Position numbers and translations under genes: made by a program
Notes under the pieces: model-generated
Told to the model about the DNA's origin: nothing
The model's input: only the letters and a program-made list of their open reading frames with translations
Databases searched by the model: none
Shown here: one piece after another, positions 6,846 to 25,811 of the stretch
How positions within the stretch are numbered: the stretch's first letter is position 1
Layout of the letters: each line of letters begins with the position of its first letter
IMG/VR virus record: IMGVR_UViG_3300034012_001258
Coordinates: 1 to 29,224 of that record
DNA length: 29,224 nucleotides
Strand: one strand, 5' to 3'
Source of the DNA: a virus

Positions 6846-7574
6846 CTAGATGAATAGTGGTTTCTGATATTGCATGGTATTGATGCGATCTTCAAACACT
6901 TTCGCTTCGCGCCAGTCATTGCCGTTGCGGCGTTCATATCGAGCGGCAAAAGACCAAGCCATGCTATCAGCGGTATAAAGCAATTCTCGGACTAAACCGG
7001 ATGATAGGGCAGTTGTTTTTACACCGAAACCATGAAGTCTCAAATCCGGACGTTCGGTTTTGATCGCGAGTAAAACATTTTCGATAGCCCCGACGTTTGC
7101 GTTTCGTTTGCAGACAGAGCCTACACCGACCCACATATTTGGCTTTAGCCGGTCGCCATACATTCGAATGTGGTTGACGTAGTCGGATGGGTCATACCCT
7201 TGAAGGACGGGGATGATTGTGATGCCGCCAACGTCGTGTTTGAGCAGCTCATCATAGCGTTCGATGGTCATGGCTTGGTGTTCGGGTATGGTCTTGCCGG
7301 TCATCTCAAGGACGAAGGCCTCGCACATATAATCTTGGGAGACCGCAGCAAGTAGATTTCCGCAAGTTGAAAACCTTTTGATTTGGCTTGCGTATTCTGA
7401 GACGGGGAAACGATAGCCCCCATGTCTGACAACCTCGGTGAATGCGCCGGAGTCCATGATCCAATCATTAACTGGGAAATGGCTTTTGCGGTTTCGAATT
7501 GTATTGACCGAGATAAAGGCCGACTCAAAATGTTTTGCGTCAGCGGGGTGATGTAGTCCAGTGAAGAATCGCAT
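6846..7574 (-). CDS. DpdA-like (TGT-fold) 7-deazaguanine DNA transglycosylase candidate (242 aa)
   Basis: Resembles the phage/actinobacterial queuine tRNA-ribosyltransferase-like family (DUF7221/DpdA type). Known DpdA enzymes swap guanine in DNA for a 7-deazaguanine base, hiding phage DNA from restriction. TGT hallmarks appear in order: MDSGAFTE (Asp41, like TGT DSGGFQ), SQDYMCEAFVLEMTG, IPVLQGYDPSDYV at 121-133, WVGVGSVCKR at 138-147, LHGFGVK at 170-176, and TADSMAWSFAARY at 191-203, where Asp193 is the likely nucleophile. The start at 7574 is set by AGGGGG eight bases before it; the ribosome site lies in a terminator-like hairpin. At 242 residues it is a compact form. No preQ0 synthesis genes are in the window, so the base would come from the host or other phage genes. 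Family assignment is firm in pattern; DNA as substrate is inferred. Confidence 0.75.
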   Translation of the reverse strand: MRFFTGLHHPADAKHFESAFISVNTIRNRKSHFPVNDWIMDSGAFTEVVRHGGYRFPVSEYASQIKRFSTCGNLLAAVSQDYMCEAFVLEMTGKTIPEHQAMTIERYDELLKHDVGGITIIPVLQGYDPSDYVNHIRMYGDRLKPNMWVGVGSVCKRNANVGAIENVLLAIKTERPDLRLHGFGVKTTALSSGLVRELLYTADSMAWSFAARYERRNGNDWREAKVFEDRINTMQYQKPLFI

Positions 7575-7577
7575 AGT

Positions 7578-7596
7578 AAAAACCCCCTTTCGGGGG
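7578..7596 (-). terminator. terminator-like hairpin covering the ribosome site of the DpdA-like gene
   Basis: On the minus strand: CCCCC-GAAA-GGGGG followed by TTTTT and, three bases later, the ATG at 7574. The 3' arm is also the Shine-Dalgarno sequence. It could attenuate transcription into the downstream gene and block its translation when folded. Confidence 0.65.
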
Positions 7597-7680
7597 CTAT
7601 TTGATTTTATTTCGAAGGATTGAAAAGACCGAGACAATGAGAATGACAAGGTCAAGTAGGGCGTTGGTCAGGATCCGCAT
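7597..7680 (-). CDS. very small membrane peptide (27 aa)
   Basis: ATG at 7680 overlaps the previous stop (TGATG). The peptide is one hydrophobic segment (ALLDLVILIVSVFSIL, residues 7-22) followed by a basic tail (RNKIK), which predicts a single membrane helix with the C-terminus in the cytoplasm. It ends at TAG directly before the terminator-like hairpin. Acceptance rests on the tight overlap and the membrane pattern; function is unknown. A second peptide of this type lies at 8264-8332. Confidence 0.5.
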   Translation of the reverse strand: MRILTNALLDLVILIVSVFSILRNKIK

Positions 7681-13542: not shown

Positions 13543-13551
13543 GGAATGATA

Positions 13552-15900
13552 ATGATAGATCGACCCCTTGAGCCTATTGAGTCAGAAGGTATTGAAATTG
13601 AAATCGTTAATCCTGAGTCTGTATCCATAGGGATGGACGGGCTAGAAATAGAAATAGAACCCGGACAGGAATCAGCAGAAGACTTTGATGCGAACCTTGC
13701 TGACTATATGTCAGAGTCAGAACTATCGACTTTGGCGACCGATTTAATCGGTGAGGTCGATGCAGATATCGGCTCGAGAAAAGACTGGGTCGATATGTAC
13801 GTTAAAGGGTTAGAAGTTTTAGGGATGAAATATGAGGAGAGGACAGAACCCTGGAACGGAGCCTGCGGTGTGTTCTCGACCTTATTAACAGAAGCGGCGG
13901 TACGGTTTCAGTCTGAAATGATTATCGAAACCTTCCCTGCTCAGGGTCCAGTGAAGACCGAGATTATCGGTCAGATTACTAAAGAAAAAGAAGACGCAGC
14001 CGAAAGGGTAAAAGACGATATGAACTATCGTTTAACTGAGACCATCCCTGAATATAGACCTGAACATGAAAGGATGTTATTTAATTTAGGTCTTAGCGGC
14101 GCCGCTTTTAAAAAGGTTTACTACGACCCGAATTTAGGGCGAGAGACGGCGGTGTTTATTCCCGCTGAAGATGTGATTATTCCTTACGGAGCGTCTGGAG
14201 CGAGGACCGCGGAACGCGTCACACACATGATGCGTAAGACTAAAAACGATATCCACCGGCTTCAGGTTAAAGGATTTTATCGGGATGTTGAGTTAGGTGA
14301 CCCGATAAAAATTCATAATGACGTTGAAGAAAAGAAAGCCGAAGAGACGGGGTTTTCGATTAACGACGATGACAGATATTTAATCTGTGAAATACAGGTG
14401 GATTTAAATCTACCTGGGTTTGAAGAGGAAGACGACGTAGCCGTTCCTTATATTATTACCATCGATAAAGGAACGAATAAAGTTCTATCGATATACAGGA
14501 ACTGGCGTGAAGGCGATCACTTATATAGAAAGCGTCAGCACTTAGTTCAGTATGACTACGTCCCAGGATTTGGTGCTTATGGCTTTGGGTATATCCATTT
14601 AATCGGCGGATATGCTCGAGCAGGTACGATGTTGATTAGACAATTAGTCGATGCGGGTACGTTATCTAATTTACCAGGAGGTCTTAAGTCTCGAGGTCTT
14701 AGGGTAAAAGGTGATGACACCCCGATAGCGCCGGGAGAATTCAGAGACGTAGATGTTCCTAGTGGCGCGATTAAAGATAATATTATGACGCTTCCTTATA
14801 AGGAGCCGTCACAAGTCTTAGCCGCTTTATTAGATAAGATAAGTGAAGAAGGCAGAAGATTAGGGTCGATTGCTGACATGAAAGTCAGTGATATGTCGTC
14901 TCAAGCGCCGGTAGGAACGACCTTAGCTCTCTTAGAGAGACAGTTAAAAACCATGAGTGCGGTGCAAGCCCGTGTTCATGCGGCGATGAAGCAGGAATTT
15001 AAGCTACTAAAAGACATTATTAAGGACTATAGCCCTGAAGAATATAGCTATATCCCTGAAGGCGGCGACCGAAAAGCCAAACAAGAGGACTACGAACACG
15101 TAGAAATCATCCCAGTGAGTGATCCCAACGCCGCAACGATGGCTCAAAGGATCATGCAATACCAAGCGGTCATCCAATTAGCGGCTCAAGCCCCACAAAT
15201 TTACGATTTACCCCAGTTACATCGGCAAATGATTGAAGTTTTAGGGGTGAAAAACGCCGATAAGTTGGTTCCGTTACCTGAAGATCAGCATCCTAAAGAC
15301 CCTGTTTCTGAAAACATGGCGTTTTTAAGGATGGAACCCACGAAAGCGTTCATATATCAGGACCACGACGCTCATATTGCGACTCACATGACCTTTATTC
15401 AGGATCCAATGATCCAACAAATGATTGGTCAGAACCCGATGGCGCAGCAAATTGGTTCCGCGGTACAGGCACACGTAGCAGAACACCTATCTTTCCTTTA
15501 TAGAAGAAAAATTGAGGAGCAAATCGGCGTTCCTCTGCCGCCTCCTAACGAAAAACTTCCAGATGATGTGGAGGTTGAGATATCAAGACTGACAGCACAG
15601 GCTGGCGCGCAGCTCTTACAGATGAACATGGCTCAAGCCCAACAGCAACAAGCCATGCAACAAGCCCAAGATCCGATTGTTCAGATGCAACAGGCTGAAC
15701 TACAGATCAAAGCCGAAGAAGTTAAGAGAAAAGCCGCTAAAGATCAGGCTGATATTGCTTTAGCCCAAGCAAGATTAAAAGTCGAGCAAGAGCGTATAGC
15801 TATCGAGGCTCAAAAAGAACAGCAACGCTTACAGGCTAAGTCTGTTGAGAACGATAAAAAACTCAAGGCTGATGTTCTTACGAAAATGACGAGGGGCTAA
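13552..15900 (+). CDS. portal protein (782 aa)
   Basis: Forms the dodecameric ring through which DNA enters the head. Recognised from size, position directly after TerL and landmarks common in portal proteins of uncultured aquatic phages: WNGACGVFSTLLTEAAVRFQ near the N-terminus, LSGAAFKKVYYDPNLGRE, VPYIITIDKGTNKVLSIYRN, FGFGYIHLIGGYARAGTMLI-type core, SSQAPVGTTLALLERQLKTM. The last 120 residues are Gln- and Ala-rich and strongly coiled coil (QAQQQQAMQQAQD, then VKRKAAKDQADIALAQARLK), probably a barrel or crown. Start at ATG 13552 is favoured because AAGGA is six bases away; an ATG at 13546 abuts it. TAATG overlap with the next gene. Confidence 0.85.
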   Translation: MIDRPLEPIESEGIEIEIVNPESVSIGMDGLEIEIEPGQESAEDFDANLADYMSESELSTLATDLIGEVDADIGSRKDWVDMYVKGLEVLGMKYEERTEPWNGACGVFSTLLTEAAVRFQSEMIIETFPAQGPVKTEIIGQITKEKEDAAERVKDDMNYRLTETIPEYRPEHERMLFNLGLSGAAFKKVYYDPNLGRETAVFIPAEDVIIPYGASGARTAERVTHMMRKTKNDIHRLQVKGFYRDVELGDPIKIHNDVEEKKAEETGFSINDDDRYLICEIQVDLNLPGFEEEDDVAVPYIITIDKGTNKVLSIYRNWREGDHLYRKRQHLVQYDYVPGFGAYGFGYIHLIGGYARAGTMLIRQLVDAGTLSNLPGGLKSRGLRVKGDDTPIAPGEFRDVDVPSGAIKDNIMTLPYKEPSQVLAALLDKISEEGRRLGSIADMKVSDMSSQAPVGTTLALLERQLKTMSAVQARVHAAMKQEFKLLKDIIKDYSPEEYSYIPEGGDRKAKQEDYEHVEIIPVSDPNAATMAQRIMQYQAVIQLAAQAPQIYDLPQLHRQMIEVLGVKNADKLVPLPEDQHPKDPVSENMAFLRMEPTKAFIYQDHDAHIATHMTFIQDPMIQQMIGQNPMAQQIGSAVQAHVAEHLSFLYRRKIEEQIGVPLPPPNEKLPDDVEVEISRLTAQAGAQLLQMNMAQAQQQQAMQQAQDPIVQMQQAELQIKAEEVKRKAAKDQADIALAQARLKVEQERIAIEAQKEQQRLQAKSVENDKKLKADVLTKMTRG

Positions 15901-17039
15901 TGATCTGGAACAGTGACTTAAAGGTCTTTAATGACCAGGAATGCAAAGAACTCGTGGAAGAGTTTTGTTCGGGAGAACATACCGATGAAAACAAGATGCC
16001 GGAGTACTATAAAAATAGCTATGGTTACTTTAACCTCCCTAAGTCACTGCAATACGTAGATCGTCTCACTTCATTAATTAAAGATCGATACCCGTCAGCG
16101 GTTTTTGCTAATACATATACCCGTTCATATCATCGTCATAGCGTCTTAAATTTACATACAGACCGGAAAGGTTTAGACCTGACGCTAAGTGTGTGTCTCG
16201 AGGATAAAAACAACCTTGACTGGCCGCTTAATATAAGCGCTAAGACCTATGACGGTGACGAGTGGGATTTAAAAGCTGATAGTAATCACTATAAAGACAA
16301 ATACTTAGAAGCGCATTTCGGCGTAGGACATGGCGCAGTGATGGAGGGCAGGCGATTCCCTCACTGGCGCGATGAATTGCTATGCGGCGAAAAGCAGCGA
16401 GCCGTTTATATTTTTTACCATTGGACGCTGCCCAAGGTAAAAGAAACAAGTCGAGTTTTATTTAGGTCAACAAAACCTATAGAGACGGCGCTATACGGAA
16501 ACTTTTTAACAAAAGAAGAATGTAAAGAACTTATCGATCAAGCTTCGACCAAGTTATTTAAATCAACGGTTGTCCATCATGAGACCGGTCAGCCAACCGA
16601 TCACCCTCATCGAACAAGTTACGGCACGTTTTTACAGCGAGGGAGTTCGCCATTGGTCAGCCAGTTAGAGCAGCGTATTGCTCAAATAACAGGGGTTCCA
16701 GTAGAACATGGCGAGGGATTGCAAATCCTTCGTTATGAAGAAGGACAAGAGTACAAACCTCATCATGATTACTTTGATCCTTCTAGACCTCCAACTACAC
16801 AAGACCTTGATAAATCCGGCCAAAGAATCGCGACGTTTCTTATTTATTTAAATACGCCAGAAGAAGGTGGCGGAACGTACTTCCCAGAAGCGAATTTAGA
16901 GTTCGAAGCTTTAGAAGGAAACGCGTTGTTATTTAAGTACCCTAATATGGAAAGAGCCTCTTTACACGCAGGCGTGCCTGTAAAAAAAGGGGTGAAATGG
17001 GTAGCGACTAAGTGGCTTAGGCAGAGGCCATTCCGATGA
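15900..17039 (+). CDS. tandem-domain 2-oxoglutarate/Fe(II) oxygenase, prolyl-4-hydroxylase-like (379 aa)
   Basis: A hydroxylase using Fe(II), O2 and 2-oxoglutarate. The C-terminal domain (about 190-379) is a clear prolyl-4-hydroxylase type: ILRYEEGQEYKPHHDYFDP with His288-x-Asp290, QRIATFLIYLNTPEEGGGTY, FPEANLEFEALEGNALLF, LHAGVPVKKGVKWVATKW with His356 and Lys366. The N-terminal half shows a second, diverged set: LHTD (His86, Asp88), FPHWRDELL (His155), with Lys165 or Arg167 as oxoglutarate anchor. The two domains are joined at VKETSRVLFRSTKPIETALY. The substrate is probably prolyl residues in protein; a glycosyltransferase-like gene follows with an ATGA overlap. Start by TAATG overlap, with GAGGGG before it. 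Confidence 0.85.
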   Translation: MIWNSDLKVFNDQECKELVEEFCSGEHTDENKMPEYYKNSYGYFNLPKSLQYVDRLTSLIKDRYPSAVFANTYTRSYHRHSVLNLHTDRKGLDLTLSVCLEDKNNLDWPLNISAKTYDGDEWDLKADSNHYKDKYLEAHFGVGHGAVMEGRRFPHWRDELLCGEKQRAVYIFYHWTLPKVKETSRVLFRSTKPIETALYGNFLTKEECKELIDQASTKLFKSTVVHHETGQPTDHPHRTSYGTFLQRGSSPLVSQLEQRIAQITGVPVEHGEGLQILRYEEGQEYKPHHDYFDPSRPPTTQDLDKSGQRIATFLIYLNTPEEGGGTYFPEANLEFEALEGNALLFKYPNMERASLHAGVPVKKGVKWVATKWLRQRPFR

Positions 17040-17884
17040 TAAGCATACCTATTGCGGTATGCGCGGGAAATTTTGGGCTTCAGTTAGATTTGTTTTGGTA
17101 TCAGCACAAAAAAATCTATGGCGTTCAGGCATGGAGAAAAGCACTTGCTTTGGTAGTTAATAAGAATGAACCGCACGAAGAAGCGCATAAGATCTTGCCG
17201 TGGGATATCAATCTTCCGCATAGCCTTGTTGTAAGTTGTTTTGAGTTTTTAAACTTAGAACAAATTTATGACCGGCTTATAGTACCGATAAATATTCAAG
17301 TAGCTTTAATACAAGCATTAAAAGACTTTGATGATGAGGAAGTTATTGAGTTATTAGATTGCGATATGTTTCATTTAAAACGCCATCCAAAGATAGACGT
17401 TAAAGATGAAGTAATCGTTTCAAATATCTACGAAGGCTGGCACTTAAAAAGTTTAACAGAGCATAAACACCTTGTAGAGCCTTTGTTAATCAAAGAACAT
17501 GGACCTTACAACGGTGGGTTTGTGCCTATTATTGCAAAGGCCAAGACGTTTAAAAAAATAGCTATTACGTGGCTTCAGGCTCATAAACAAATATTTCAGA
17601 GTACGGAGTCAAAAGACTTTCGTTGGTGGGCTGGTATGTACGCCTTACAAGTAGCTTGTGCCAACCATCGAGTCCACATGCGGCATGAAGATCTTGTTTA
17701 TGTCCCTGGGTTTAACAATTACAAGCCATCTCATTACATCAGTCATTATTCATGCGATACAAGATTTAACAAGAAAATTATTAAATCGATTGAAGATATA
17801 AAGACTGATAATTTTTTAGAGAATGATTTTTATTGGGCGGTGAAAGATTGGCTTGAATCAAGGAAAAGACATGGATGTGTTTGA
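17036..17884 (+). CDS. glycosyltransferase-like protein resembling hydroxyproline/serine O-glycosyltransferases (282 aa)
   Basis: Landmarks recall plant/algal hydroxyproline O-arabinosyltransferases and peptidyl-serine galactosyltransferases (GT95/GT96 type): the DxD-type metal site ELLDCDMFHLKRHP (Asp108, Asp110), EHGPYNGGFVPIIAKA with YNGG at 158-161, RWWAGMYALQVACANHRV at 196-213 (compare their W..EMYAYA..A) and a late PSHYISHYSCD (compare I.HYTY). In those enzymes sugar is added to hydroxyproline or serine in secreted proteins. Here it overlaps by ATGA a prolyl-hydroxylase-like gene, so a two-step modification is suggested. No signal peptide or membrane segment is visible, so it acts in the host cytoplasm. 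Family by pattern, not by a search. Confidence 0.6.
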   Translation: MISIPIAVCAGNFGLQLDLFWYQHKKIYGVQAWRKALALVVNKNEPHEEAHKILPWDINLPHSLVVSCFEFLNLEQIYDRLIVPINIQVALIQALKDFDDEEVIELLDCDMFHLKRHPKIDVKDEVIVSNIYEGWHLKSLTEHKHLVEPLLIKEHGPYNGGFVPIIAKAKTFKKIAITWLQAHKQIFQSTESKDFRWWAGMYALQVACANHRVHMRHEDLVYVPGFNNYKPSHYISHYSCDTRFNKKIIKSIEDIKTDNFLENDFYWAVKDWLESRKRHGCV

Positions 17885-18062
17885 GTTATTACACGGGAAA
17901 TTACAAGACAGAATCCGAGATATGGAGATGTCTTTGAGCAACGGCTCGGCAAAAGATTATGCCGAGTATCGAGAGCTGTGCGGCGTTATCCGGGGTCTAC
18001 GATCCGCACAGATGGAAGTACAAGACCTTGCGAGTCGTTTAAAGGAAAGTGAAGATGAGTGA
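17871..18062 (+). CDS. small helical phage protein (63 aa)
   Basis: Function unknown. The ATG at 17871 is chosen for CAAGGAAAAGAC before it; an in-frame TTG at 17853 has none. It is almost entirely helix: MDVFELLHGKLQDRIRDMEM, then KDYAEYRELCGVIRGLRSAQ, ending in an acidic tail. The same pattern (LQDRIRDM, GAKDYAEYRE, CGVIRGL) recurs in tailed phages near head genes. It overlaps the glycosyltransferase by 14 bases and the next gene by eight. Confidence 0.7.
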   Translation: MDVFELLHGKLQDRIRDMEMSLSNGSAKDYAEYRELCGVIRGLRSAQMEVQDLASRLKESEDE

Positions 18063-18456
18063 GTTATTAATCTCCCAAGATGGAGAAACGGCAACGACGT
18101 TGCCTGAGTCGGCAGAGGAAAAGGCCAAGCAGTTGCCTGATCCTTCTACCTATCATTTGTTGTGTGTACTTCCAGAAGTGGAAGAGGAGTATGACAGCGG
18201 TCTTGTTAAAGCCGGGTCTACTGTTTACTACGAAGAAGTGCTTTCACCGGTTTTATTTGTAGTCAAGATGGGGCCGGATGCATATGGCGATAAATCAAGG
18301 TTTCCTTCAGGTCCATCCTGCAAGGTAGGGGACTTTGTTTTAGTCCGTCCAAACACAGGTACGAGGATCAAAATCCACGGCAAAGAGTTTCGAATCATTA
18401 ATGATGATTCAGTCGAAGCGGTGGTTCAAGATCCACGCGGCATTTCTCGAGCATAG
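18055..18456 (+). CDS. GroES-like co-chaperonin (133 aa)
   Basis: Probably folds into a 10-kDa chaperonin-like ring subunit that could pair with host GroEL to fold phage capsid protein, as T4 gp31 does. The family pattern is visible after a 30-residue lead: YHLLCVLPEVEEEYDSGLVK (start of the beta barrel and mobile loop), LFVVKMGPDAYGDKSRFPSG, PSCKVGDFVLVRPNTGTRIK, GKEFRIINDDSVEAVVQDPR. In GroES the same order is K.LP..DE......G....GP.......VK.GD.V......GT.....G.E...I...D..A. Its place before the scaffold and capsid genes fits. Start ATG 18055 (AAAGGA upstream) is better than GTG 18049. Confidence 0.78.
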   Translation: MSELLISQDGETATTLPESAEEKAKQLPDPSTYHLLCVLPEVEEEYDSGLVKAGSTVYYEEVLSPVLFVVKMGPDAYGDKSRFPSGPSCKVGDFVLVRPNTGTRIKIHGKEFRIINDDSVEAVVQDPRGISRA

Positions 18457-20709: not shown

Positions 20710-21618
20710 ATGGCTATTTCACGCGCACAACTGTTGAAAGAGCTGCTTCCTGGCCTGAACGCTTTGTTCGGTCTTGAGTACGCTCGTTATGGCGAAGAAC
20801 ACAAAGAGATCTACGAAACCGAGACCTCTGAGCGTTCGTTTGAAGAGGAAACCAAGCTGTCTGGCTTTAGCGCCGCTCCGGTCAAACCGGAAGGCAGTGC
20901 GATTAGTTATGACAACGCACAAGAAGCGTGGACCGCTCGGTACAACCACGAAACCATTGCTATGGGCTTTTCGATTACCGAAGAGGCCGTGGAAGATAAC
21001 TTGTACGACAGCTTGTCGTCTCGTTACACCAAAGCACTGGCTCGTGCGATGGCATACACCAAGCAGGTTAAGGCAGCATCGGTACTTAACAATGGCTTTA
21101 ATTCCGCAGTCACCTATGGCGACGGACAAGCTTTGTTCTCTACCGCTCACCCCCTAATCTCTGGCGGCACCAACAGCAACACACCTTCGACCGCTGCTGA
21201 CTTGAATGAGACTTCTCTTGAGAACGCCGTCATTCAAATCGCAGGGTGGACGGATGAACGTGGTCTGTTGATCGCAGCCAAACCCCGTAAGTTGGTTGTT
21301 CCTCCGAACCTCATGTTTACAGCAACCCGCTTGCTGCAAACCGAGCTTCGCGTGGCAACAGCAGATAACGATGTGAACGCACTGAAGATGATGGGTTCAA
21401 TCCCAGAAGGCTTCACTGTCAATCACTTCTTGACTGACACCAACGCATGGTTCCTCACCACTGATGTTCCCAATGGCCTTAAGCACTTCGTAAGGACACC
21501 GTTGAGTACGTCAATGGATGGAGACTTCGATACCGGAAACGTTCGCTACAAGAGCCGTGAAAGGTACTCATTCGGAGTGAGCGATCCGCTAGGTATCTTC
21601 GGTTCGCCCGGAGCATAA
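20710..21618 (+). CDS. major capsid protein, HK97-fold Mu gpT-like (302 aa)
   Basis: Main shell protein. Landmarks match the Mu gpT/major-head-subunit type HK97-fold family: MAISRAQLLKELLPGLNALF, the E-loop-like TETSERSFEEETKLSGFSAA, AMGFSITEEAVEDNLYDSLS, ASVLNNGFNSAVTYGDGQAL, FSTAHPLISGGTNSN, AAKPRKLVVPPNLMFTATRL and PLSTSMDGDFDTGNVRYKSR, ending with FGVSDPLGIFGS. Length of about 300 residues is normal. It has a strong ribosome site (AAGGAGTAAGAA) and is followed by a clear terminator, so it is likely among the most expressed genes. Confidence 0.9.
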   Translation: MAISRAQLLKELLPGLNALFGLEYARYGEEHKEIYETETSERSFEEETKLSGFSAAPVKPEGSAISYDNAQEAWTARYNHETIAMGFSITEEAVEDNLYDSLSSRYTKALARAMAYTKQVKAASVLNNGFNSAVTYGDGQALFSTAHPLISGGTNSNTPSTAADLNETSLENAVIQIAGWTDERGLLIAAKPRKLVVPPNLMFTATRLLQTELRVATADNDVNALKMMGSIPEGFTVNHFLTDTNAWFLTTDVPNGLKHFVRTPLSTSMDGDFDTGNVRYKSRERYSFGVSDPLGIFGSPGA

Positions 21619-21739: not shown

Positions 21740-22660
21740 ATGGAACAAGTCATTTATAAGATCATCAACGTCGTCAACAGCAAATTTTATGTAGGAAGTA
21801 CAACAAACAAAAAGGTGCGTTTTAGGCAGCATCGTAAATTGCTTCGAGGTAACAGGCATCACTGCAAACATTTGCAAGCATCGTGGAACAAGTACGGTGA
21901 AGATAAGTTTGAGTTTGTTGTTGTTGAAGTTGTTCCAAGTGCTATGTCTCTTCAACAAATAGAAGATATATATTTGTTTCAACACGTTGGGCAGCCTATG
22001 TGCTACAACTCTGGGTATTCAGCGGACGCTCCTTGGCGTAATGCCCCGCCAGAGTCTACGCCAAACTTTGGCAAAGTTATGGCGCAGCAACAAAAAGAAC
22101 AGATCTCTAAAACGCTAAAAGATTTTTACGCAGCTGATTACTTTAACCACCCTCGAGTCGGTAAGAAGCATTCTGAGGAGACACGGTTAAAGATTCGACA
22201 GAACAGAACGCCTACAAGCGGTGAAAATCATTACCGTTACGGCCAAAAGATTTCTGAAGGCGTAAGAAAAAAAATTGGCGACACTCAACGAGGCAAACCA
22301 AAAGCACCGGGAAGAAAGGTTTCGGAGGAAGGTCTCAAAAAAATCAGGAAAAATATAGAAGAAGGCCGAAGCCATAAAACGTTCTTAGGAAAAAAACATA
22401 CGGAAGAAAGCAAAATGAAAATGAGTAAAACTGTATTTGTTATGCCAGACGGCATTCTGTTTCCAAGTCTTACTTCGGTTCTTTCCTACTATGGGATCAA
22501 GATGCCAACGCTTCGTAGAGCGTTGATATCTGGTAAACCCTTGTCGAAAGGTCGGCTAGCCGGTTACGGGTTTAAGTATGGAGGCGTAGACTCAAAACCG
22601 ACTGAAAATGATATGGCATTGATACGTGCAAAGCTTGTTGACACCATCCCAACAAACTGA
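21740..22660 (+). CDS. GIY-YIG homing endonuclease with NUMOD3 motifs (306 aa)
   Basis: A selfish DNA-cutting enzyme that copies its gene into uninvaded alleles. The N-terminal 90 residues are a GIY-YIG domain: VIYKIINVVNSKFYVGST (the GIY and YIG tyrosines are Tyr6 and Tyr17), VRFRQHRKLLRGNRHHCKHL with Arg27 and His31, LQASWNKYGEDKFEFV, and Glu75 in LQQIEDIYLF as metal ligand. The C-terminal half holds NUMOD3-type DNA-binding repeats: GKKHSEETRLKIRQN, GKPKAPGRKVSEEGLKKIRK and GKKHTEESKMKMSK. It is free-standing, on the coding strand, with its own promoter between the capsid gene and the next virion gene. Confidence 0.88.
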   Translation: MEQVIYKIINVVNSKFYVGSTTNKKVRFRQHRKLLRGNRHHCKHLQASWNKYGEDKFEFVVVEVVPSAMSLQQIEDIYLFQHVGQPMCYNSGYSADAPWRNAPPESTPNFGKVMAQQQKEQISKTLKDFYAADYFNHPRVGKKHSEETRLKIRQNRTPTSGENHYRYGQKISEGVRKKIGDTQRGKPKAPGRKVSEEGLKKIRKNIEEGRSHKTFLGKKHTEESKMKMSKTVFVMPDGILFPSLTSVLSYYGIKMPTLRRALISGKPLSKGRLAGYGFKYGGVDSKPTENDMALIRAKLVDTIPTN

Positions 22661-25266: not shown

Positions 25267-25346
25267 AAGCCCCGCAAAAAAGTCTAAAAGATTGGACGTT
25301 ATGTTTTTATTGCTGCGCTAACCGAGGAATGAGATGTCCCAAATAG
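25263..25346 (+). pseudogene. 5' remnant of the gene now at 25839, cut by the HNH insertion
   Basis: A GTG overlapping the previous stop (GTGA) opens a frame that reads MKAPQKSLKDWT before running into the HNH insert and ending at TAG 25344-25346. The six residues QKSLKD and the Trp after them are repeated exactly in the intact gene starting at 25839. The likely original gene began here; the endonuclease cassette separated this start from the rest. Confidence 0.7.
25275..25295 (+). repeat. left copy of the 21-bp repeat flanking the HNH cassette
   Basis: Codons for QKSLKDW. Compared with 25857-25877, 18 of 21 bases match, and all three differences are synonymous (AGT/TCT, AAA/AAG). Confidence 0.75.
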
Positions 25347-25811
25347 TTTGGCAATTTGGCGTAGACTATAACCTTGGTTTAGTAAGGCGAGATATTCTTG
25401 CTTACGCGCTTCGTGAATACGGCGTTTTGCGCTTGCAATTTTTTGAGATTCCCAATTATGCCTTTCGCTGCCGTATCCAGAGTTTTGTTTGGCGGTTACC
25501 CATCGCAAATTGGAAACATGGTTATTTTGGCGGTTGCCGTCTATGTGATCAACTTGAGGCAAATGTTCCGGGTTTTGCAAAAACATCTGCGCTACAAGCC
25601 GATGAACGTACCGATAACTACCGCGACCAAGCGCTACACGCATGTAACCAGTTGAATGCTTCCAAGGCTGTAATTGCTTTATTTTGTCAACTTTTATACG
25701 ATGTTTTAACCCGCGTTGCGGGATATCTGACCAATTTGCTTGTACGTTTCCAAAATTACTTACCGAATAACGTCCGCCAGAGTCGGCAATTTCTATCCAG
25801 ATTTCGTTCAT
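25299..25811 (-). CDS. HNH homing endonuclease (NUMOD4/HNH_3) with C-terminal HTH, antisense to the late operon (170 aa)
   Basis: A selfish site-specific nuclease. The start MNEIWIEIADSGGRYSVSNF followed by GNVQ is a NUMOD4 module; YRYVHRLVAQMFLQNPEHLP with QVDHIDGNRQNNHVSNLRWV is the HNH_3 core (His in VHRLVA, the Asp-His of VDHIDG, the Asn of NNHVSNLRW). The C-terminal QGYSLRQIAKLFGTSHSSVS is a helix-turn-helix for target recognition. Ribosome site AAAAGGAG before ATG 25811. It runs against all neighbouring genes with its own promoter at 25831-25859. Its stop lies three bases from the broken gene remnant. Confidence 0.9.
   Translation of the reverse strand: MNEIWIEIADSGGRYSVSNFGNVQANWSDIPQRGLKHRIKVDKIKQLQPWKHSTGYMRVALGRGSYRYVHRLVAQMFLQNPEHLPQVDHIDGNRQNNHVSNLRWVTAKQNSGYGSERHNWESQKIASAKRRIHEARKQEYLALLNQGYSLRQIAKLFGTSHSSVSAAIKT

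Follow-up and report, generated by a model that had tools for sequence, protein, structure and literature searches.

A contig of 29,224 bases from a bacteria-infecting virus (IMG/VR record IMGVR_UViG_3300034012_001258; analysed whole and hereafter called the window) encodes, inside its head operon, a prolyl 4-hydroxylase (P4H) directly followed by a glycosyltransferase (GT) of the hydroxyproline arabinosyltransferase (HPAT) family. The two enzymes probably constitute a protein modification module that hydroxylates and then glycosylates, with proline-rich virion proteins as the likeliest acceptors. The P4H domain would act first, adding a hydroxyl to a residue of the target peptide chain, most probably a proline within stretches rich in Ser-, Thr-, Ala- or Val-Pro, and the HPAT-like GT-A enzyme would move a sugar from a nucleotide-sugar onto the new hydroxyl. 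The likeliest substrates would be long, proline-rich stalks in tail or ejection proteins of the phage virion itself, and the product would be a stiff glycosylated rod, as in the hydroxyproline-rich glycoproteins (HRGPs) of plants and algae. The genes and domains concerned are as follows (2OG, 2-oxoglutarate).

13546–15900, plus strand: portal protein gene (phrog_1216 portal, E 8e-23)
15900–17039, plus strand: tandem 2OG/Fe(II) oxygenase, 379 aa (PF13640, 1.4e-16; PDB 2jig, 1.3e-40; Foldseek 3gze, 5.9e-19; invariant triads)
15918–16439, plus strand: N-terminal oxygenase-like domain of the 379-aa protein (phrog_2954, 7e-13; invariant residues)
17036–17884, plus strand: 282-aa GT-A glycosyltransferase of the HPAT Pfam family (PF23452, 5.3e-8; confident model)
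17865–18062 (listed open reading frame from 17853), plus strand: conserved small gene o69 at the border of the variable slot (conservation)
18055–18456, plus strand: GroES-like co-chaperonin, the next fixed head-operon gene (Cpn10, 3e-4; phrog_3188, 1e-8)
20710–21618, plus strand: major capsid protein, downstream end of the head module (PF25209, 1e-15; phrog_371, 5e-24)

The head module runs in the order terminase large subunit, portal, P4H and GT, o69, GroES-like gene and major capsid protein. The last A of the portal stop codon TAA is the first base of the P4H ATG (15900), and the GT start codon overlaps the stop codon of P4H in the tetranucleotide ATGA (17036–17039). Both reading frames, this overlap and the location of the pair between portal and capsid had been reported in a first-pass annotation made from the sequence alone; the frames and overlap were confirmed in the sequence, and the location by profile matches of the neighbouring genes.

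The C-terminal half of the 379-aa protein (domain at about residues 196–377) is a P4H with intact catalytic residues, for which prolyl C4 hydroxylation is predicted. It matched PF13640 at 61.6 bits against a curated cut-off of 27 (E 1.4e-16), and a sequence search of the PDB put it closest to Chlamydomonas P4H-1 (2jig, 1.3e-40). Foldseek returned 3gze (5.9e-19, TMt 0.77, 37% identity), the same algal P4H-1 crystallised with a (Ser-Pro)5 peptide. The iron triad H288, D290 and H356 and the 2OG-binding K366 were invariant in 13 homologues, so that Pfam, PDB sequence search, Foldseek and active site all bear out the earlier P4H-like assignment. That annotation had not included a second, N-terminal oxygenase-like domain (about residues 1–180), in which H86, D88 and H155 were likewise invariant in 13 homologues and R/K167 was conserved. 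No solved relative of this N-domain was found by PDB sequence search. The two domains are encoded by separate genes in L014 and L036, and the model of the whole oxygenase is of moderate confidence (pLDDT 80).

The 282-aa protein is assigned to the HPAT Pfam family as a GT-A enzyme by its sequence and predicted structure, "arabinose" being merely the family's name. PF23452 (HPAT) matched it at 33.0 bits against a cut-off of 23.9 (E 5.3e-8) and was matched by 31 of 41 members of the GT family at E<=1 (best, 6.5e-11). HPAT-type landmarks (DCD, YNGG, W..GMYA and ISHY) noted in the first-pass annotation were confirmed as DCD (108–110), YNGG (158–161), WWAGMYA (197–203) and HYISHYSCD; D108, D110, Y158, N159, G160, G161, W198, M201, H237, Y238 and D241 were invariant in 41 homologues. 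The predicted structure is confident (pLDDT 94.5, pTM 0.91) and has a GT-A fold with a DxD metal site, the nearest structures in the model comparison being GT6 enzymes (4.6e-8, TM about 0.5). Searching the PDB by sequence with the GT profile retrieved no HPAT structure, and the fold comparison therefore says no more than GT-A; the family call is supported by PF23452. Other weak Pfam matches, including ASFV_360 and Pathogen_betaC1, were rejected as sub-threshold and shared by few family members each. HPAT was rare in sampled bacterial genomes (1/391 and 2/298; 0/14 in control genomes). A bacterial HPAT (L276) aligned to the phage profile at the metal site, the W..GMY region and the HY.CD end, with 21% identity to the phage GT over the aligned part. 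Searching 50,697 phage records with the GT by tblastn gave zero matches, which leaves isolate phages without precedent for this enzyme.

Pairing of the GT with a hydroxylase recurs well beyond the window. We collected 57 GT loci (50 viral, 7 in bacterial metagenome-assembled genome (MAG) contigs) and grouped them into 35 clusters. The GT is fused to a 2OG hydroxylase, either P4H or JmjC, in 4 clusters, lies within 100 bp of a 2OG/JmjC hydroxylase in another 13, and has a hydroxylase elsewhere in the locus in 6. Such an oxygenase was present in only 2 of 80 random viral loci; the survey of co-occurrence called for by the first-pass annotation thus finds a recurrent pairing (17/35 fused or at <=100 bp). 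The partners are of two kinds, P4H-type and JmjC/Cupin_8. L035 encodes a GT+P4H fusion, and L055, L057 and L058, all bacterial MAG contigs, encode GT+JmjC/Cupin_8 fusions of about 650 aa. JmjC enzymes mostly hydroxylate residues other than proline, and the general logic of the module may therefore be to hydroxylate a side chain and then glycosylate it. One of these bacterial fusions sits on a contig of 1.28 Mb; together they form a cellular counterpart of the phage module. PF11397, which we take to be the family containing the Skp1 hydroxyproline GlcNAc-transferase Gnt1, is fused to the GT in L047, L054 and L056; PF11397 genes fused to or near an HPAT-like GT occur across L047, L048, L054, L056 and L033. 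In L013 (5566–7652, minus strand), a radical SAM/SPASM gene and a sub-threshold O-FucT-like gene adjoin the GT, a possible protein-modification neighbourhood.

Joining a 2OG oxygenase to a glycosyltransferase is also the logic of TET/JBP-type phage systems, in which TET and a glycosyltransferase modify DNA. Hypermodification of this kind, with the oxygenase hydroxymethylating a base and the GT glycosylating it, might draw on the sub-threshold Tet_JBP match of the L035 oxygenase and on a DpdA-like DNA-modification gene in the window. It is nonetheless very improbable here: TET systems target DNA bases, whereas sequence and fold both make the window oxygenase a P4H, not TET/JBP, and it has no Tet_JBP match in Pfam at E<=1. 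Elsewhere the GT is partnered by JmjC hydroxylases, the surroundings of the cassette showed no base-methyltransferase partner, and DpdA performs another chemistry. The DpdA-like gene itself (6846–7655, minus strand; PF23859, 2.5e-35) suggests 7-deazaguanine-type DNA modification in the window phage.

Comparison of relatives whose terminase is 65–99% identical showed that the cassette fills a variable slot between portal and o69/GroES. P4H+GT occupies it in the window and in L090, L091, L098, L102 and L106; a GT2-family enzyme stands in place of the pair in L135 (13855–14706) and L101 (3809–4525); in L105 the slot is empty (about 26 bp). The gene o69 is kept in relatives both with and without the cassette. 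Because slot contents vary in this way, the pair behaves as exchangeable cargo in a head operon that is fixed elsewhere, and sugar-adding enzymes have entered the slot repeatedly. Between relatives, both P4H and GT genes showed strong purifying selection (proportions of nonsynonymous differences, pN, 0.09–0.20; of synonymous differences, pS, 0.67–0.90); with pN far below pS, both are evidently retained as proteins. Their divergence outpaces that of the other head genes: in the two genomes L090 and L091, P4H and GT are 77–84% identical, compared with 93–99% for portal, terminase, GroES and capsid.

Candidate acceptors were found in related contigs. The nearest near-complete relative, G002 (60,858 bases; GT 77%, P4H 79%), has in its tail region an open reading frame of ~2,190 aa (59584–5366, around the circle) with long TP/VP/AP tracts and with APASDPPP, PTEPV and TETPTVTPTETP runs. 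The frame extends past both ends of the contig through a terminal repeat of 65 bases, and its circular closure could be an assembly effect, since that repeat sits within the coding repeat. In L047, a 210-aa (SP/TP)n protein ends 68 bp upstream of the P4H, which is followed by the PF11397+HPAT fusion. An (AP)n protein lies near the split oxygenases and GT of L014, VVPPVVP repeats lie directly upstream in L035, and L054 encodes a (TP)n protein; on the L030 contig, PSxPSTPSPS repeats make up about 500 residues of a 1,409-aa protein, and the L009 contig carries a (TP)n tail-like protein. Under a rule of >=7 consecutive XP or 16 P in 40 residues, with a gene-call filter, XP-repeat proteins occurred in 5 of 35 GT clusters, compared with 0/80 random and 0/80 terminase loci (Fisher on 5/36 versus 0/160, p=1.6e-4), the terminase loci being head modules, which limits the comparison. 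Proline-rich stretches at terminase control loci disappeared under the gene-call filter and were put down to non-genic or antisense frames; the proline signals of L037 and L043 were antisense or collagen-like rather than XP repeats. L043 (1815–6208, minus strand) encodes two collagen-like (GxT)n tail proteins near its GT, and no hydroxylase was detected there. The G002 repeat protein and its G047 counterpart (2–2326) are orthologues with C-termini 88% identical; their repeat regions, however, are rich in TP/VP in the former and in TT/AP (mucin-like) in the latter, and the slot enzymes differ. As this is a single pair, a switch of repeat composition with the slot enzyme was not used in the argument.

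Several observations weigh against a joint module acting on proline-rich virion proteins. The PF23452 match covers profile positions 81–250 of 307, only part of the HPAT model, and because it is partial the donor sugar and acceptor are not readable from it. The XP rule was set after examples had been seen, and weaker proline-rich segments also occur in the cassette-free relatives G047, G052 and DSL-LC04. The window stops upstream of the tail genes, which places its own proline-rich acceptor out of view. Two relatives, L089 and L137, have P4H alone in the slot, and in 12 of the 35 GT clusters the available sequence shows no hydroxylase. Since the slot takes P4H alone or GT2 enzymes and those 12 clusters are hydroxylase-less, P4H and GT are not obligate partners. 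These arrangements, together with GT2 enzymes in the slot without P4H, would fit a shared cargo slot whose enzymes work separately, P4H on one protein and the GT on virion serine/threonine or on a cell-surface glycan; plant peptidyl-serine galactosyltransferases do resemble HPATs. We give such a division of labour a low probability, as the GT is fused directly to P4H and, independently, to a JmjC hydroxylase, and 17/35 clusters are fused or separated by <=100 bp. Of the joint action proposed in the first-pass annotation, both family assignments stand, as do the GT-A fold and the functional pairing seen in overlaps and fusions, with HRGP-like candidates in related contigs; that proline is the modified residue, that the sugar goes onto its hydroxyl, which protein accepts it and what role this plays are inferred.

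Known systems offer partial parallels to the hydroxylate-then-glycosylate module. HPATs attach the first arabinose to hydroxyproline of plant extensins (PMC8158104), and the plant and algal pathway shares with the phage cassette the P4H family, the HPAT Pfam family and proline-rich XP-repeat candidate acceptors. The phage genes differ in being adjacent or fused, with no apparent signal or membrane anchor, and in an HPAT match that is partial. Skp1 is modified by the hydroxylase PhyA and by Gnt1, placed in GT60 (PMC6939170); here too a proline is hydroxylated in the cytosol and a sugar added to the hydroxyproline, and some phage GT homologues are PF11397-fused. The window GT is of another family, however, and Skp1 is a single-site regulatory target, unlike the likely repeats of the phage. 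Mimivirus L230 and R699, virus-encoded, carry out collagen lysyl hydroxylation and glucosylation (PMC9546862), likewise a viral 2OG hydroxylase and glycosyltransferase acting on a repetitive viral protein; this giant amoeba virus differs in modifying lysine rather than proline, in its glycosyltransferases and in its collagen acceptors.

The eukaryotic Skp1 precedent could also suit a module that modifies a host protein, such as EF-Tu or another translation factor, and so controls the infected cell rather than the virion. The P4H C-terminal domain is also close to bacterial P4Hs, and, according to their PDB titles, 5v7y is a P4H that modifies EF-Tu and 4iw3 a complex of Pseudomonas putida P4H with EF-Tu. 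We regard a host target as unlikely, given that the genes lie among late head genes, that XP-repeat phage proteins adjoin several homologous modules, and that the slot also accepts unrelated glycosyltransferases, as surface diversification would predict.

Aquatic viromes commonly contain P4H genes, whose use by viruses "remains cryptic" according to a survey of 2022 (PMC9301287). The GT partner and the repeat-rich candidate acceptors provide a specific, testable answer. In a literature search of partial coverage, in which absence is not proof, we found no paper joining P4H to a hydroxyproline glycosyltransferase in phages and hence no published precedent for the pair. It is possible, though at somewhat less than even odds, that tailed phages make their own hydroxyproline-rich glycoproteins, in which phage P4H would hydroxylate SP/TP/AP/VP virion rods and HPAT-like or Skp1-Gnt1-like enzymes would glycosylate them, the modifying enzyme being swapped in the head-operon slot for surface diversity. 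This suggests an additional layer of virion surface modification; if true, the known range of hydroxyproline glycosylation, which includes plants, algae and protists, would grow to take in bacterial viruses, and compact enzymes for glycosylated proline-rich polymers could follow.

Elsewhere among the late genes, the window carries a GIY-YIG/NUMOD3 homing endonuclease gene and an HNH-like open reading frame (21740–22660 and 25299–25811).
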